NCBI GenBank assembly: GCA_903854305.1
Contig: CAINWC010000405.1
Span: forward strand, 1-8,758
Source: an uncultured Pseudomonadota bacterium
GTDB taxonomy: Bacteria > Pseudomonadota > Gammaproteobacteria > Burkholderiales > Methylophilaceae
Direction of reading: 5' to 3'
Length of the DNA stretch: 8,758 bases
Shown here: positions 3,111-8,758 of the stretch, one piece after another
Position numbering within the stretch: position 1 is the stretch's first letter
Layout of the letters: each line of letters opens with the position of its first letter
Position numbers and translations under genes: made by a program
Notes under the pieces: model-generated
The model's database searches: none
The model's input: the letters and a program-made list of their open reading frames with translations, nothing else
Told to the model about the DNA's origin: nothing

Positions 3111-4310
3111 TTACACAGCTTTAGGTTTAACCAAACTAGCGGCCAATTTTGCACGTTCACGCGCTTCAGTCACATCTTTACCCGTGGCAAGCGCGACGCC
3201 CATACGACGCTTCACAAATGATTCTGGTTTACCAAATAGGCGAATATCGCTGCTTGGCACGGCCAATGCTGCATCTACACCGTCAAAAATTAAATTATGT
3301 GATTCATATTGGCCATAAATTACAGCACTTGCACCAGCCTCACGTAAGCTAACATCGACTGGCAAGCCTAAAATCGCACGCGCATGTAAATCAAATTCGC
3401 TAAAGCGCTGGCTACACATGGTCACCATACCAGTGTCATGCGGACGTGGGCTAACTTCACTGAACCACACTTTGTCACCTTTAATAAACAGCTCCACACC
3501 AAATAAACCAAGGCCACCCAAGCTATCTGTTACCGCTTTTGCGATGCGTTTAGATTCAACTAATGCGCCAGTTGTCATGGCCTGTGGTTGCCAGCTTTCT
3601 ACATAATCGCCTTTTTCTTGCACATGGCCGATTGGCTCGCAAAAGTAGGTTTGAATTTCACCTTGCGCGTTTTTTGCACGTACAGTGAGCAAGGTAATTT
3701 CATAATCAAAATCAATCTGTCCTTCCACAATCACCACACCTTGATTCACTCGTCCGCCAGTCGCCGCATAATCCCAAGCGGTTTTAACTTCGCTGGCATT
3801 AGTAATCCGTGACTGGCCTTTACCAGAAGATGACATCGTCGGTTTAATAAAGCATGGATAGCCGATACCCGCATCGATTGCGGCTTGTAAGTCAGCCTCG
3901 CTTCTGGCAAACGCATAAGGTGAGGTTGGTAAATTGAGCTCTTCTGCCGCTAATCGGCGAATGCCCTCGCGATTCATGGTCAACTGCACCGCTTTAACGG
4001 TAGGAATCACCGTGGCGATACCGGCGGCTTCAATCTCTGCAAGGGTATTGGTATTAAGCGCTTCAATCTCAGGTACGATCAAATGCGGTTTTTCTTTGGC
4101 GACAAGCTCACGTAGGGCTTTATCATCAGTCATATCAATCGTATAAGCACGGTGCGCAACCTGATGACCAGGCGCATTTTTATAACGATCAACAGCAATC
4201 ACTTCAACGCCTAAACGTTGCAGCGCAATAATCACTTCTTTACCGAGCTCGCCGCTGCCTAGCAACATGACGCGCGTGGCATTTGGGCTTAATGGGGTTC
4301 CAATTTGCAT
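3111..4310 (-). CDS. purT: Formate-dependent phosphoribosylglycinamide formyltransferase (GAR transformylase 2)
   Basis: PurT makes formyl-GAR from glycinamide ribonucleotide, formate and ATP in the third step of purine synthesis, avoiding 10-formyl-tetrahydrofolate. The 399-residue protein is close to the usual length of about 392 and matches the family along its whole length. Visible parts are the N-terminal nucleotide-fold segment [12 protein letters not shown] (15-26), PEIEA (80-84) in the GAR site, [16 protein letters not shown] (110-124), the ATP-grasp loop MSSSGKGQ (159-166), the metal-binding GVELF (E273) and [14 protein letters not shown] (E285), and LFGKPE near the C terminus. The enzyme is cytosolic and homodimeric in known members. 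The ATG has a weak AAAGAA ribosome binding site. It lies 125 bases after the regulator gene and has its own candidate promoter; a globin gene follows. A formate-using step would suit an organism with active one-carbon metabolism, which is inference. Confidence 0.97.
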
Positions 4311-4330
4311 GATATTCTTTCAGTTTTAGT

Positions 4331-4374
4331 TGGCTGAATAATACCATGCAGCGATTATTCAGTCATTTCTGAAT
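4331..4374. promoter_or_regulatory. Array of three alternating CTGAAT/ATTCAG half-sites over the purT promoter
   Basis: CTGAAT (4334-4339), ATTCAG (4357-4362) and CTGAAT (4369-4374) alternate in orientation. The outer inverted repeat 4331-4342 with 4354-4365 pairs at 11 of 12 positions around an 11-base centre; the second pair has a 6-base centre. On the minus strand the half-sites overlap the candidate -35 and -10 boxes of purT. As most of the array lies upstream of the predicted start site, a DNA operator is more likely than an RNA attenuator. No known regulator is recognised. Confidence 0.4.
4338..4366 (-). promoter_or_regulatory. Candidate sigma-70 promoter of purT
   Basis: On the minus strand, ATGACT (4366-4361, four of six matches to TTGACA) is followed by a 17-base spacer and TATTAT (4343-4338, five of six matches to TATAAT). 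A TGG just before the -10 box gives an extended -10 element. Transcription would start near 4331, leaving an untranslated leader of about 20 bases before the purT ATG. Both boxes overlap the CTGAAT/ATTCAG inverted repeats, which suggests regulation. Confidence 0.5.
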
Positions 4375-4435
4375 GGTAACTGCGGGGTGACTTTATTGGA
4401 AAACAGCTGTAATCGATTGCAAAACTTACGAGATA

Positions 4436-5884
4436 TTAATGTCCGATTTGATGCTTATCCATGCGATAACGCATCGTCATACGCGTAATGCCGAGCTTAC
4501 GCGCAGCTTCAGATACATTGTCGTTCGATTCTGCCAGCACTTGCACTAAAATTGCCTTTTCAGCTGCATCCAAAGTAGGCGGTGTAGTTTGATTAGTGTT
4601 AGCTTGAACCGAAAGTTGATTATTAGCGCTGTGCATTGACAAGGCTAAATCAAGCTCGGTAATCTGGCCTTCATGGCACAGCAACATCGCGCGACTGACT
4701 TGATGTTTTAACTCACGCACATTGCCAGGCCAGCTATAGCCACGAATCATTTTTACAGCGTCGGCTGAAAATACCGGACGGGATAAGCCGTAACGTCTAG
4801 CGGTTTGTGCTGCAAAATGACTCGCGAGCAACAAAGCATCACCTTCTCTTGCACGCAGAGGCGGCATAGCAATGCTCATCACATTCAATCGATAATACAG
4901 GTCTTGTCTAAAACTACCAGACTGTGACATTTCATGTAAATCACGATTGGTGGCGGCAACAAAACGTGCAGGCACGGCGCGCTCTTTGGTTGAGCCCAGC
5001 CTGCGCACCACACGACGCTCTAATACGTTGAGCAGTTTGGCTTGCAGCGCTACAGGCAATTCGCCGATTTCATCTAAAAAAAGTGTGCCGTCTTCCGCGG
5101 CCTCAATCAAACCTGGACGCGTAGATTGCGCGCCAGTAAAAGCGCCCTTCTCGTGGCCAAACAACTCACTTTCCATTAAATCTGCAGGCAATGACGCACA
5201 ATCAATATGCACAAATGGCTTATCGCTACGCTTGTCATTATCTTGGCAGGACAAATGCAACAGCCGCGCGGCTACATCTTTACCTGTACCAGTTTCACCG
5301 CTAATCAGAACTGTGGGCGGTACGGTATCGTTAGCCACGAGTTGTGAGATACGCTTGATTTGCGCTTTTACACTTTGCATGACAGGGCTTTCACCCAGCA
5401 ATTCAACATGGTCAATCGCGTGAGCATTGCGCTGGCGCGAATAATCCAAGCTATTACTTTGTACCGCGGCCACTTCAGCTTTTTGTACCGATAACAGTAA
5501 CTCTTCAAGGTCGATCGGTTTTTTAATATAATCGACCGCGCCTTGCTTAATGGCGTTGACGGCATCGCTGACTTCACCATAGGCAGTCATTACAATCACA
5601 ACCGTATTCTTTACGATTAACTCTGAAATTAGATCCAAGCCGTTACCATCAGGCAAACGCATATCCAGTAACACAATGTCTGGCGAAAACTGTTTTGCAC
5701 TGGCACGCGCATCTTGCAAGCTCTCAACATGCGCGCACTCATAGCCAGCCTTTTGCAAGCGCCTCAATACTGCGCGTGCAAACAACACCTCATCTTCAAC
5801 AATGAGTATTTTGGACTGTTGCTTACCTAACATTGAAGTGCTTTCTGCTGAAGCATAGCGAGAGATGAGGTGTGCCAATTGCAT
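4436..5884 (-). CDS. Sigma-54-dependent response regulator, NtrC family
   Basis: This 482-residue protein is a bacterial enhancer-binding protein that would activate sigma-54 RNA polymerase. The receiver domain (about 25-140) has acidic residues E30/D31, phospho-acceptor D74 (LLDMRLPDG), T100 and K122. The AAA+ domain (about 160-400) has Walker A SGETGTGKD (195-203), the sigma-54-contacting loop GAFTGA (247-252), Walker B GTLFLDEIGE (266-275), and arginines in FRQDLYYRL (325-333). A Fis-type helix-turn-helix (about 438-478, NVSEAARKLGITRMTMRYRM) ends the chain. All key residues are intact. I chose the ATG at 5884 because TAAGG precedes it by six bases; a shorter start at M18 (5833) is possible. 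The gene begins 11 bases after the TonB receptor stop codon, with the ribosome site in the gap, so the two are almost surely cotranscribed. No partner histidine kinase is visible. Its likely target is the receptor promoter region. Confidence 0.95.
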   Translation of the reverse strand: MQLAHLISRYASAESTSMLGKQQSKILIVEDEVLFARAVLRRLQKAGYECAHVESLQDARASAKQFSPDIVLLDMRLPDGNGLDLISELIVKNTVVIVMTAYGEVSDAVNAIKQGAVDYIKKPIDLEELLLSVQKAEVAAVQSNSLDYSRQRNAHAIDHVELLGESPVMQSVKAQIKRISQLVANDTVPPTVLISGETGTGKDVAARLLHLSCQDNDKRSDKPFVHIDCASLPADLMESELFGHEKGAFTGAQSTRPGLIEAAEDGTLFLDEIGELPVALQAKLLNVLERRVVRRLGSTKERAVPARFVAATNRDLHEMSQSGSFRQDLYYRLNVMSIAMPPLRAREGDALLLASHFAAQTARRYGLSRPVFSADAVKMIRGYSWPGNVRELKHQVSRAMLLCHEGQITELDLALSMHSANNQLSVQANTNQTTPPTLDAAEKAILVQVLAESNDNVSEAARKLGITRMTMRYRMDKHQIGH

Positions 5885-5886
5885 CT

Positions 5887-5895
5887 AGCGCCTTA
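5887..5895 (-). promoter_or_regulatory. Ribosome binding site at the receptor-regulator junction
   Basis: On the minus strand the receptor stop codon TAA is followed directly by TAAGGCGCTAG and the regulator ATG. TAAGG matches the anti-Shine-Dalgarno core at a six-base spacing. This supports the 5884 start over the internal ATG at 5833 and suggests translational coupling to the receptor gene. Confidence 0.6.
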
Positions 5896-8304
5896 TTAAT
5901 CAACATCCACTGCTGCTGCGGTTTTTGGTTTACCAAAATCATAACGTAAGCCAACCCAACCGGCGCGTGGTGCACCTGGCGCTAGGAATGTTTCATTAGC
6001 ACCAGTACCATTGGCAAATGCACCATTAGCCGTAAAGCCACTGGTTCCAAGCATTGCACTAGTATAATAGCTTGCGTCAAAAACGTTATTGACCTTGGCG
6101 AACAATTGCCAGCCTGTACTAGGTACGGTGTAACGAGTATCCAGATTTAACACACCATAACCAGCCACTTTGCCAGAACCCATGAAATTTACACCATCAG
6201 CTTGATGCTGGTTATTTTCATTGCCACGAGCATATTGGCCTGAGAACAAAACTGCACTAGCACCAATCGTCCAAGTGGGTAATGCACGCCATTCAGTACG
6301 CAATTTGAATTGATGTTTTGGAATGCCTGGAATATTGTCGCCTGGATTGACAGTAATACCCATCACGGCATTGCCATTTAGATCGACTCTTGGAGCTCCA
6401 GCAGCATCTAGCAATTGATAGGCGCTTGAGTTGGAGCCGCTAGCAATATCAAACGAACTTTGATAAGTCGCCTTGATATAGCTGTAGCCTGCTGACCAAC
6501 GGAAATCACCTGTTACACCGCTCAAGCCAAAATCAACCCCTTGACGGCGCGTATCACCTACATTTTGAAAGAAGCCGCTACCTGAAGTATTAGCCGCAAT
6601 AAACTGTAAATCGTTAGAGTTGGTAGCACGATAAACTGACACATTCCATTTAGCATTATCTCCAAATTTACCACGCACACCGCCTTCAAATGTCTTGGCA
6701 ACCACTTGTTTCAACGGTGGGTCACCGGCCATCGCATTAGGTAAATTGCATGGCATCAGAGGGTCTGCGCAGCCCATTTCAATGATAGATGGCGCACGAT
6801 TGCCTTCGTTATAACCTGCGTAGACATTAAGTTCTGGTACAAAACTATAAGTCAAACCTACCGCAGGATTAAAGCGACTATAAGTATCTGAACCGGTAAG
6901 TGAGCCAGTACCAGCGCCACCAACTGGATTAATTAAATCTTCATTATTAATACGTGTGTTGTTATAACGGCCAGATGCGGTTAACGCTAACTTTGGTGTT
7001 GCGTTGTAAGTGTCAGTAGCAAATACACTCCAAGTACGGTTACGGCCTTTCAATAATACATCCTGGCTCACAGCATCCAAAGTACCGCCAACACCACGAG
7101 CAGCATCAAAAGTACTGAATAACTGACTGGTTTGTTCAAAATTGATGCGCGCCAAATCAGCACTTGCACCCGCGGTTAGCTGATTTTTGTCGGTCACCCA
7201 AGTTAATTGAGCACCTAAACCATAGCCTTTTTGGGCGGTGCGACCTTGATTGATAACACCTTCAAAAGTATCAACTGGTGAACCAGGCACAACATTAGGA
7301 TCAGTCGCTGAAGTACCAAAACCAGCGTTCAAATCGCCATTATATGAACTAGTACGATTGCTTCTGTAATACGCATTCGTTGTCAGCAGAAACTCATCCG
7401 AAAGCCATGTACTCACCTTCGCATTAATAAAAGCCAGCTTGTTTTTTGTAATATCAGGTTTGGTGTAGACTGATTGGCGGCCTAAAGTTTGTAGCATGCT
7501 CTGTACCTGATAACCATTACCGGTCAACTGATTATCTGCCCCAGTAAAGCTCACATCTACATCCGTTTTTTCATTACTCCAACCTAACTTTGCAAATCCT
7601 TGCAGAACATCTGATGGTGAGCTATCACGCCAGCCATCTTCTTTAAACTTGTTGCCCGCAAAAAAGTAGCTCACGCCATTATCTAACTTACCGCCGTATT
7701 CGCCTTCAACAGCTTTACGACCCCATGAACCGCCAGACAACTGAATGCCGCCACCAGGATTATGTTCGCCGCTCTTGGTTTGCACAGAAACGGCGCCACC
7801 TAATGTGTTTAAACCAAATAATGGATTAGAACCAGGCATTAGCGCGATACTTGAAATCGCATTTTGTGGAATCAAATCCCAGTTAACCGTATCGCCGAAT
7901 GGCTCATTCACACGAACACCATCTTGATACACTGATAGACCTTGTGGTGTACCCACTAAAGGCGAAGCCGTAAAACCACGAAAGTTAACATCTGGTTGAT
8001 ACGGATTATTTTGCGCTTCGTTGATATTTACGCCAGCCATGTTTTGGTTCAAATAGTCAGCAATACTCAGACCATGTTGATCCTGAATATCTTTACCTTT
8101 TGCAACTTGCACATTAGAAGGTATTTGGTTAATGGGCACGCCAAGGCTAGAAAGTGGCGTAACGCCGACCACTTCAATTTTACCCAGCTCAATGGCCTCT
8201 GCTCGGTTTTCAGCAAAAGCTAACTGCGGCATCGCATAAGCAGCCAAAATTGCCACTAAGATTAATTTTGGTTTTATCGCATTTTCTTGTAATGTTTTTG
8301 GCAT
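5896..8304 (-). CDS. TonB-dependent outer-membrane receptor, substrate unknown
   Basis: This 802-residue protein is a TonB-dependent receptor that imports a scarce ligand across the outer membrane using the TonB-ExbB-ExbD system. It has a signal peptide (1-31; charged start, hydrophobic core, AFA before the cut), then a TonB-box-like IEVVGV (43-48) and a plug domain (about 55-180) with VNFRGF, LSVYQDGVRVNEPFGDT and LFGLNTLGGAVSVQT. The remainder is a beta-barrel rich in aromatic strands. There is no N-terminal signalling (STN) domain, so it is a plain transporter and not a FecA-type transducer. Only two cysteines occur, C512 and C519, in a CADPLMPC loop after NRAPSIIEMG; a disulfide is likely. 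The barrel-ending VGLRYDF is followed by a 12-residue GKPKTAAAVDVD extension. AGGA lies six bases before the ATG. The upstream region has sigma-54-type signals and the next gene is a sigma-54 activator. No ligand can be assigned from sequence alone. Confidence 0.95.
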   Translation of the reverse strand: MPKTLQENAIKPKLILVAILAAYAMPQLAFAENRAEAIELGKIEVVGVTPLSSLGVPINQIPSNVQVAKGKDIQDQHGLSIADYLNQNMAGVNINEAQNNPYQPDVNFRGFTASPLVGTPQGLSVYQDGVRVNEPFGDTVNWDLIPQNAISSIALMPGSNPLFGLNTLGGAVSVQTKSGEHNPGGGIQLSGGSWGRKAVEGEYGGKLDNGVSYFFAGNKFKEDGWRDSSPSDVLQGFAKLGWSNEKTDVDVSFTGADNQLTGNGYQVQSMLQTLGRQSVYTKPDITKNKLAFINAKVSTWLSDEFLLTTNAYYRSNRTSSYNGDLNAGFGTSATDPNVVPGSPVDTFEGVINQGRTAQKGYGLGAQLTWVTDKNQLTAGASADLARINFEQTSQLFSTFDAARGVGGTLDAVSQDVLLKGRNRTWSVFATDTYNATPKLALTASGRYNNTRINNEDLINPVGGAGTGSLTGSDTYSRFNPAVGLTYSFVPELNVYAGYNEGNRAPSIIEMGCADPLMPCNLPNAMAGDPPLKQVVAKTFEGGVRGKFGDNAKWNVSVYRATNSNDLQFIAANTSGSGFFQNVGDTRRQGVDFGLSGVTGDFRWSAGYSYIKATYQSSFDIASGSNSSAYQLLDAAGAPRVDLNGNAVMGITVNPGDNIPGIPKHQFKLRTEWRALPTWTIGASAVLFSGQYARGNENNQHQADGVNFMGSGKVAGYGVLNLDTRYTVPSTGWQLFAKVNNVFDASYYTSAMLGTSGFTANGAFANGTGANETFLAPGAPRAGWVGLRYDFGKPKTAAAVDVD

Positions 8305-8310
8305 GTCATT

Positions 8311-8314
8311 TCCT
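8311..8314 (-). promoter_or_regulatory. Ribosome binding site of the TonB receptor gene
   Basis: AGGA on the minus strand lies six bases upstream of the receptor ATG at 8304 and fixes that start. The signal peptide that follows directly supports the same choice. Confidence 0.7.
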
Positions 8315-8343
8315 AAGTTTTATTTGAAACATCACAATTAAAT

Positions 8344-8360
8344 AGCAATAAGCATTCCAA
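8344..8360 (-). promoter_or_regulatory. Candidate sigma-54 (-24/-12) promoter of the receptor-regulator operon
   Basis: The minus strand reads TTGGAATGCTTATTGCT. Against the sigma-54 consensus YTGGCACGRNNNTTGCW it keeps TTGG, the essential GG-N10-GC spacing and TTGCT; mismatches are confined to three central positions. The predicted start is near 8333, giving a leader of about 29 bases that contains the AGGA ribosome site. A cognate activator is encoded in the same operon, which makes the match more credible than the motif alone. Confidence 0.6.
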
Positions 8361-8373
8361 CCACTGGATATTT

Positions 8374-8401
8374 TAAGTTATTGAATATAATCAATGAGTA
8401 G
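8374..8401. promoter_or_regulatory. IHF-like sites between enhancer and promoter
   Basis: Two sequences each match the IHF consensus WATCAANNNNTTR with one mismatch: AATCAATGAGTAG on the plus strand (8389-8401) and ATTCAATAACTTA on the minus strand (8386-8374). They lie about 41-68 bp upstream of the predicted start, between the palindromes and the promoter, where DNA bending normally helps sigma-54 activation. The region is AT-rich, so chance matches are quite possible. Confidence 0.3.
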
Positions 8402-8441
8402 CATTATCTTTAATTTTATTACTGAGATTTTACACTGCGAT

Positions 8442-8483
8442 ATTGGTTGTATACAACCACCAATTGGTTGTATACAACCACCA
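8442..8483. promoter_or_regulatory. Two tandem 21-bp units, each with a 16-bp palindrome: candidate enhancer (UAS) for the NtrC-type regulator
   Basis: Two identical 21-bp units abut exactly (8442-8462 and 8463-8483). Each contains the perfect palindrome TGGTTGTATACAACCA (8444-8459 and 8465-8480). Centres are 21 bp apart, two helical turns, so bound dimers would sit on the same face of the DNA. Distances to the predicted sigma-54 start are about 119 and 140 bp. That is the usual enhancer geometry of NtrC-family activators, one of which is encoded in this operon. The TTGTATACAA core also resembles some GntR-family operators, so another regulator is possible. No T-run follows, so a terminator for the upstream permease gene is unlikely. 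Confidence 0.65.
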
Positions 8484-8489
8484 CTTAGA

Positions 8490-8758
8490 TTAAATACTGT
8501 TAAGCAGCTGCCTTGCAGGTATATTAAGAAATCCTCGCAACCCCAACCAAGCCGCCAGCGGGATAACGGTTGCTGCGATGAGCATGGTGCTGATTGCGAG
8601 TCTTACATTTAATTGAAACGGAATATTTAATATATATTCACTCATGTAATACGCAAGTAAATTGGCGGCAATGGCAGCAACCAATGCGGCAATTAGCCCA
8701 ATACAGGCAAACTCAGCCACGTAAGCAACACCCACTTGCCGCCTTGAGGCGCCAAACA
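8490..8758 (-). CDS. FtsX/YbbP-like ABC transporter permease, C-terminal fragment
   Basis: Only the last 88 residues are visible; the frame is open to the right window edge, so the gene begins outside. The sequence starts FGASRRQVGVAYVAEF, which matches the conserved (L/F)GA-RRQ coupling segment before the final membrane helices of FtsX-domain permeases. Two hydrophobic segments follow (about visible residues 18-36 and 57-72), and the end WLGLRGFLNIPARQLL resembles the YbbP-type C terminus. Such permeases pair with an ATPase of the MacB/LolD/YbbA type in the inner membrane and often act on lipoproteins or the envelope; the exact substrate here is unknown. The stop codon lies seven bases before the palindromic repeats of the receptor control region. 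Confidence 0.82.
   Translation of the reverse strand, partial: FGASRRQVGVAYVAEFACIGLIAALVAAIAANLLAYYMSEYILNIPFQLNVRLAISTMLIAATVIPLAAWLGLRGFLNIPARQLLNSI

Follow-up and report, generated by a model that had tools for sequence, protein, structure and literature searches.

A predicted sigma-54 circuit places a TonB-dependent receptor of Methylophilaceae under the NtrC-type regulator of its own operon

In a Methylotenera-like genome, paired palindromes and a -24/-12 element precede consecutive genes for a TonB-dependent receptor and an NtrC-type response regulator. Very probably the regulator binds these palindromes to activate sigma-54 RNA polymerase, raising itself, the receptor and a small uptake regulon. 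The window analysed here, 8,758 nucleotides long, is one whole contig (G000:C405) of that genome, which is in 445 contigs; over the best segment, its receptor is 81-83% identical to receptors from records named Methylotenera. In the proposed mechanism, a kinase encoded elsewhere would phosphorylate the regulator, which would bind the palindromes. IHF would bend the DNA between these sites and the promoter, and sigma-54 RNA polymerase activated by the regulator would produce receptor and regulator on one transcript and raise the other members of the regulon. Judged from sequence, the best account is a sigma-54 uptake regulon that activates itself in Methylophilaceae and likely serves lanthanides.

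Organization of the receptor-regulator locus

On the minus strand, an FtsX/YbbP-like permease gene comes to its end and is followed by two palindromes, an IHF-like site, the promoter TTGGAATGCTTATTGCT, the receptor, the response regulator, purT and a truncated globin (Table 1). Receptor and regulator are separated by 11 bases. The elements named in the original prediction (palindromes, promoter, ribosome site, receptor, regulator and this gap) were all recovered in place, and the transcription start predicted near 8333 from the -24/-12 position agrees with the GG and GC spacing on the minus strand. An Rfam scan of the window found no family. Elsewhere in the window, two DEAD-box helicase genes adjoin one another (2-1093 and 1106-2530), the first with a long Arg/Gly/Asp/Ser-rich tail that gives rise to long alternative reading frames on both strands. 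PADLOC gave nothing beyond generic RtcR-like AAA+/HTH matches and a weak match to SduA, which were not counted as defence.

Table 1. Coordinates of the circuit and its neighbours in the window
Feature	Position	Strand	Basis
Distal palindrome GGTTGTATACAACC, predicted enhancer half	8466-8479	.	14/14 match; pair conserved in 53/62 regions
Proximal palindrome GGTTGTATACAACC, 21 bp from the distal one	8445-8458	.	14/14 match
IHF-like site AATCAATGAGTAG	8389-8401	+	8/9 consensus bases, read from sequence
Predicted sigma-54 promoter TTGGAATGCTTATTGCT, TTGG-N10-GC	8360-8344	-	GG 8358-8357, GC 8346-8345
Ribosome-site-like AGGA ahead of receptor ATG (8304-8302)	8314-8311	-	Sequence
TonB-dependent receptor, 802 aa, plug PF07715 and barrel PF00593	8304-5896	-	Pfam
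NtrC-type response regulator, 482 aa	5884-4436	-	PF00072 receiver, PF00158 AAA+, PF02954 Fis-type HTH
purT, conserved downstream neighbour, outside the claimed circuit	3111-4310	-	Profile matches
FtsX/YbbP-like ABC permease gene end, upstream neighbour	8490-8756	-	Profile matches

The palindrome pair and -24/-12 element are conserved across Methylophilaceae

Upstream regions were analysed in 67 sequences, namely 66 fetched loci and the window, and a receptor start was obtained for 62 of them (none for L137, L143, L260, L266 and L280). A palindrome pair was called where at least two palindromes, each with at most three mismatches, lay 15-45 bp apart; a -24/-12 element was called where GG-N10-G[CA] scored at least 9/12 at 40-150 bp downstream of the pair. 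The pair was found in 53/62 Methylophilaceae receptor upstream regions and in 0/6200 dinucleotide shuffles of these regions. Pair and -24/-12 element occurred together in 50/62, which runs against the outcome named beforehand as fatal to the circuit, that orthologous receptor-regulator pairs would lack both elements. Three regions from one genus (L141, L274 and L276) have the pair and a failing -24/-12 element, with GT at -12. Nine of the 62 regions are without a full pair: L278 and L287 are truncated, and in L025 the measurement covered 110 bases ahead of the first of two tandem receptors, the second of which has the full element, while truncation does not explain the missing pair in L146, L259, L272, L282, L285 and L286.

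Control regions lacked these features. Receptor relatives without this regulator nearby, one of them a Methylophilaceae receptor 68% identical to the window's (L047), had the pair in 0/66 cases and a strong -24/-12 element in 0/66, although many of these loci presumably come from GC-richer bacteria, going by their names, which makes this an easier control to pass. Neither pair nor strong -24/-12 element was detected in purT regions (0/23).

The arrangement of the elements is regular. Successive palindromes are 21-23 bp apart in 46/66 spacings and 31-32 bp apart in 9/66, and the distance from the last palindrome to the -12 base is 74-141 bp (median 106, 53 regions). An IHF-like site matching at least 8/9 of the consensus lies between palindromes and promoter in 37/53 regions, compared with 24% of mononucleotide shuffles; these predicted sites are weaker evidence than the other elements.

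TonB receptors are commonly transcribed by sigma-70 polymerase under Fur-type metal control. Were that the case here, with Fur or another common metal regulator, the -24/-12 match would be incidental. We regard this as very improbable, since the element stands at a set place in 50 of the 62 regions and since only 5 sigma-70-like sites were detected in 4200-8758, compared with 8.5 expected, none of them upstream of the start. The only minus-strand sigma-70-like site near the start (8309-8281) overlaps the receptor start codon.

The palindromes might instead serve as operators for a repressor or some other regulator encoded elsewhere, with the cotranscribed response regulator acting on other genes. 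Palindromes of 14 bp suit many regulator families, and binding by this particular regulator is deduced from sequence. Nevertheless we consider such operators unlikely: the pairs accompany the receptor-regulator pair and are absent from the 66 receptor relatives without this regulator, the spacing near two helical turns and the distance to the -12 base suit an enhancer, and the helix-turn-helix segment of the regulator is conserved along with the site.

Single palindromes were also considered as regulon markers and rejected. With at most three mismatches, 70 matches were found genome-wide versus 94 for a reversed control pattern; with at most two, the counts were 11 versus 6 in the window's own genome and 6-15 versus 2-14 in eight relatives. 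Because single palindromes are not above chance genome-wide, only pairs are informative.

The regulator has the domains of a sigma-54 activator and appears to control its own gene

The regulator contains a receiver domain (PF00072, 90.7 bits) whose phosphoacceptor, Asp74 within LLD[ML]RLPD, is kept in 25/25 aligned regulators. It is followed by an AAA+ domain (PF00158, 211.8 bits), with a GAFTGA loop at 247 in the window regulator and GAFTSA or GAFTNA in many orthologues, and by a Fis-type DNA-binding domain (PF02954, 41.6 bits), in which the helix-turn-helix segment GITRM.MRYRM is kept in the 25 aligned regulators. With a predicted -24/-12 target promoter and paired upstream sites, the protein has the characteristics of a sigma-54 response regulator. 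NtrC, AtoC, ZraR and PrsR share this domain order (receiver, AAA+ with GAFTGA, Fis-type helix-turn-helix), as well as paired upstream sites and a -24/-12 promoter. The present system differs from them in that no kinase gene adjoins, the target is a TonB receptor, and sister lineages carry GAFTSA or GAFTNA. The window regulator falls below every NCBIfam cut-off listed, its best match being PEP_resp_reg TIGR02915 (PrsR) at 368.8 of 502.6 bits. In PfeR-PfeA of Pseudomonas, too, a response regulator activates a TonB receptor encoded by the adjacent gene, but PfeR is an OmpR-type activator with a kinase alongside.

A regulator orthologue (E <=1e-100) was found in 103/187 Methylophilaceae genomes, representing 14/24 genera. 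Receptor and regulator genes adjoin in 18 of 20 neighbourhoods taken from other genera; in this set purT follows the regulator in 19/20, and a ybbP-like gene precedes the receptor in 15/20. Among these neighbourhoods, one receptor is cut by a contig end, one is split into three frames, one is absent (L143, genome G042), and the receptor region of L145 was read separately. Whole receptors there are 42-51% identical to that of the window and regulators 59-70%, so that by sequence the regulator is the more conserved member of the pair. In L138 (G056) and L148 (G058), the receptor genes are split into several frames and the regulator is still open.

The G042 genome, having lost the receptor, carries the -24/-12 element TTGGAATGTATTTTGCT directly before the regulator gene, as autoregulation predicts, although its palindromes are degenerate. 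The original prediction was of an activator driving its own receptor operon through sigma-54. Its architecture stands, being conserved across the family and with the promoter kept in G042, while binding, activation and autoregulation are what we infer from it. The circuit was also described as self-contained, and this has to be given up: the same composite element precedes other genes in the same genome, and neither the open reading frames nor the Pfam hits of the window include a sensor kinase, so the signal must enter from elsewhere.

The activator loop and the promoter -12 base vary together

Loop and promoter were read in 77 genomes, the promoter being picked with the -12 base left unscored; G118, G040 and G042 were dropped for want of a receptor start, and G048, G037 and G043 because the upstream sequence was too short. 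Genomes with Gly or Asn in the fifth loop position (GAFTGA or GAFTNA) have C at -12 in 55/55 cases, including G036, which has no palindrome pair and a doubtful promoter. The 21 genomes with Ser (GAFTSA) have A in 17, T in 3 and C in 1. This last genome, G058, has a receptor followed by a separate short receptor-like frame and may be decaying. In G152 the loop was unread owing to a stop in frame, and -12 is C. The window itself shows the canonical combination, a GAFTGA loop with C at -12.

Changes in GAFTGA usually weaken activators, according to the available passages of PMC3162934. The altered loop, together with GT (three genomes) or GA (17 genomes) in place of GC, makes the use of sigma-54 less certain in those lineages, to which the window does not belong.

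One explanation is that regulator and receptor promoter co-evolved into a private sigma-54 channel, with activator-specific reading of -12, inside a family-wide lanthanide-uptake regulon; we put this forward tentatively, as the doubtful side of possible. Shared ancestry, by which two branches of the family would merely differ in two fixed traits that have no bearing on each other, is moderately probable. On a tree built with the loop residue masked, the Ser state needs two changes and non-C at -12 needs three. A single Ser clade is unrejected (p-AU 0.055), and good support exists for only one independent contrast. The coupling is thus suggestive: the association, striking and with a structural rationale, rests on about one evolutionary event.

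Other observations count against shared ancestry. Five Ser-loop genomes yielded 41 activator domains, and 30 loci were retrieved; two of these loci hold the present regulator, with GAFTSA, one was unread, and the other activators keep Gly in 27/27. Sigma-54-like sites between genes flanking those activators have C at -12 in 5/5 under a strict cut and in 16/22 under a looser one, compared with 1/12 inside genes. In addition, a solved complex shows the L1 loop inserted into the groove immediately past -12 on the downstream side (PMC9770992). In NorR, laboratory mutagenesis of this loop glycine left D, N, Q, S, C and M as the sole tolerated replacements, with constitutive activity for N and D (PMC2941729). 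A search of literature text, as far as it was accessible, found GAFTDA or GAFSGA and did not find GAFTSA or GAFTNA. The natural series GAFTGA, GAFTNA and GAFTSA, with C, A or T at -12, asks how an enhancer-binding protein reads the base at which melting starts. If the coupling is true, promoter reading at -12 would depend on the activator in a natural system.

The receptor may import a lanthanide complex

The Pfam hits of the receptor comprise plug and barrel only, with no STN signalling domain, and no sigma or anti-sigma factor was hit among the six window proteins scanned; an arrangement of the FecA/FpvA type was not found. The receptor matched no lanthanide receptor model and, by sequence, no solved structure at E 0.001. 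Its nearest NCBIfam model is PqqU NF041535, at 97.3 of 1200 bits far below the cut-off, and the names given by sources are Fe transport or BtuB.

Across 80 receptor loci (L020-L099, many truncated), kin of a NarL-type regulator were found at 50, its kinase at 46, a quinoprotein relay metallohydrolase at 20 and a PQQ dehydrogenase at 18. The residue two places after the catalytic Asp separates lanthanide-type from other dehydrogenases, and 19 loci were examined for it. A dehydrogenase lies about 3 kb before the receptor in 15/19, with WDFD in 15/15; L044 reads WDFD and L077 WDLD, L031 and L187 gave none, and a second, farther dehydrogenase reads WDFS in 7. Two dehydrogenase fragments with WDYD occur in the window's own genome. 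The lanthanide ligands of XoxF include two Asp two places apart, as given in the available passages of PMC11845868.

Since PQQ dehydrogenases carrying WDFD, the lanthanide-type motif, are encoded near receptor relatives, lanthanide uptake is predicted, and the chances are about even that the receptor imports a lanthanide complex for a PQQ-dependent methanol dehydrogenase. With the circuit otherwise as described, import of PQQ, iron or cobalamin complexes instead is also quite plausible, if a little short of an even chance. The PqqU match and the names given by the sources favour such substrates, and in E. coli YncE-like propellers lie beside the PqqU gene. The WDFD dehydrogenases and quinoprotein relay metallohydrolases near the relatives speak for lanthanides instead, but such neighbours would be expected of PQQ supply as well.

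LutH and LanA, by their description in the part of PMC12482762 available, are likewise TonB receptors in methylotrophs with lanthanide-type dehydrogenases. The accessible passages on LutH and LanA make no mention of sigma-54 control (PMC11845868, PMC12482762); in the same passages the lanthanide response is under other two-component systems, with no sigma-54 example. Of these, as partly described, the lanthanide switches MxaY/MxaB and PedS2/PedR2 likewise tie a response regulator to lanthanide-dependent alcohol oxidation, whereas the present regulator is a sigma-54 AAA+ protein encoded inside the receptor operon. Within the texts that it covered, a literature search found no sigma-54 activator of this kind over an outer-membrane receptor in methylotrophs. 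The parts are familiar and the wiring looks new: the predicted circuit puts an outer-membrane receptor under a sigma-54 activator, and perhaps with it the means by which a common family of methylotrophs obtains lanthanides.

NarL-type relatives adjoin receptor relatives outside Methylophilaceae, and the sequences suggest that Methylophilaceae swapped one regulator type for another at receptor loci. In Rhodocyclales and kin (L028-L069), receptor relatives lie beside TonB or ExbD, a quinoprotein relay metallohydrolase, a PQQ dehydrogenase and a kinase/NarL-type pair. The tandem receptors of L025 are 51% and 84% identical to the window's, with TTGGAATACTTATTGCT upstream of each.

Further genes lie behind the same element in a lineage-dependent manner

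In the window's own genome, three palindrome pairs were found among the 50 of 70 places listed. Besides that of the receptor operon, one pair (C313:17539/17561) precedes a YncE-like beta-propeller gene (PF21783), with CAGGCGCACTTCTTGCA, and one (C274:465/483) precedes the gene of a 1046-aa autotransporter-like protein, with TGGCAAGATTATTGCAT. The C-terminal half of this protein is 75% identical to a relative with the autotransporter domain PF03797, and autotransporter genes of G158, G142 and G143 are also preceded by the element. In some relatives, though less regularly, the element stands before exbB-exbD-tonB (L187, L192) and mxaR-like genes (L181; partly L246). The idea that the circuit sets the level of one outer-membrane transporter is therefore too narrow.

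Under strict criteria, propeller loci had the pair in 9/30 and the promoter as well in 3/30. The propeller gene occurs in 166/187 genomes, including small genomes of genus g2 for which no regulator was listed, and on these counts it was rejected as a family-wide partner. At mxaR loci, two of 30 having fewer than 100 bases upstream, the pair was found in 3/30 and the full element in 1/30; G158 mxaR has kept the promoter and one palindrome. Pair and promoter occurred at 1/30 exbB loci (L192), and L187/L190, which are one locus, have three imperfect palindromes and a GG-N10-GC seen by eye. By sequence, the constant predicted target is the receptor-regulator operon, and other targets vary by lineage.

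Before two mxaR-like genes (L181 5320-5910, minus strand; L246 6300-6700), a terminator-like hairpin lies within about 100 bases after the sigma-54 element, and the gene begins about 200 bases later; the interval may hold a small RNA or form an attenuated leader. In L182 (4100-4400), a set of three imperfect palindromes with TTGGCATGCTTATCGCT is directed into sequence that has a terminator-like hairpin and no 100-aa frame, adjoining an XoxF-like (WDYD) gene and a gene with two PepSY domains. PepSY-domain genes, possibly kin of LanPepSY, also lie near exbB-exbD-tonB and a kinase with a NarL-type regulator in L185 and L187, and the PepSY gene of L185 has a palindrome pair upstream, with no obvious -24/-12 element.
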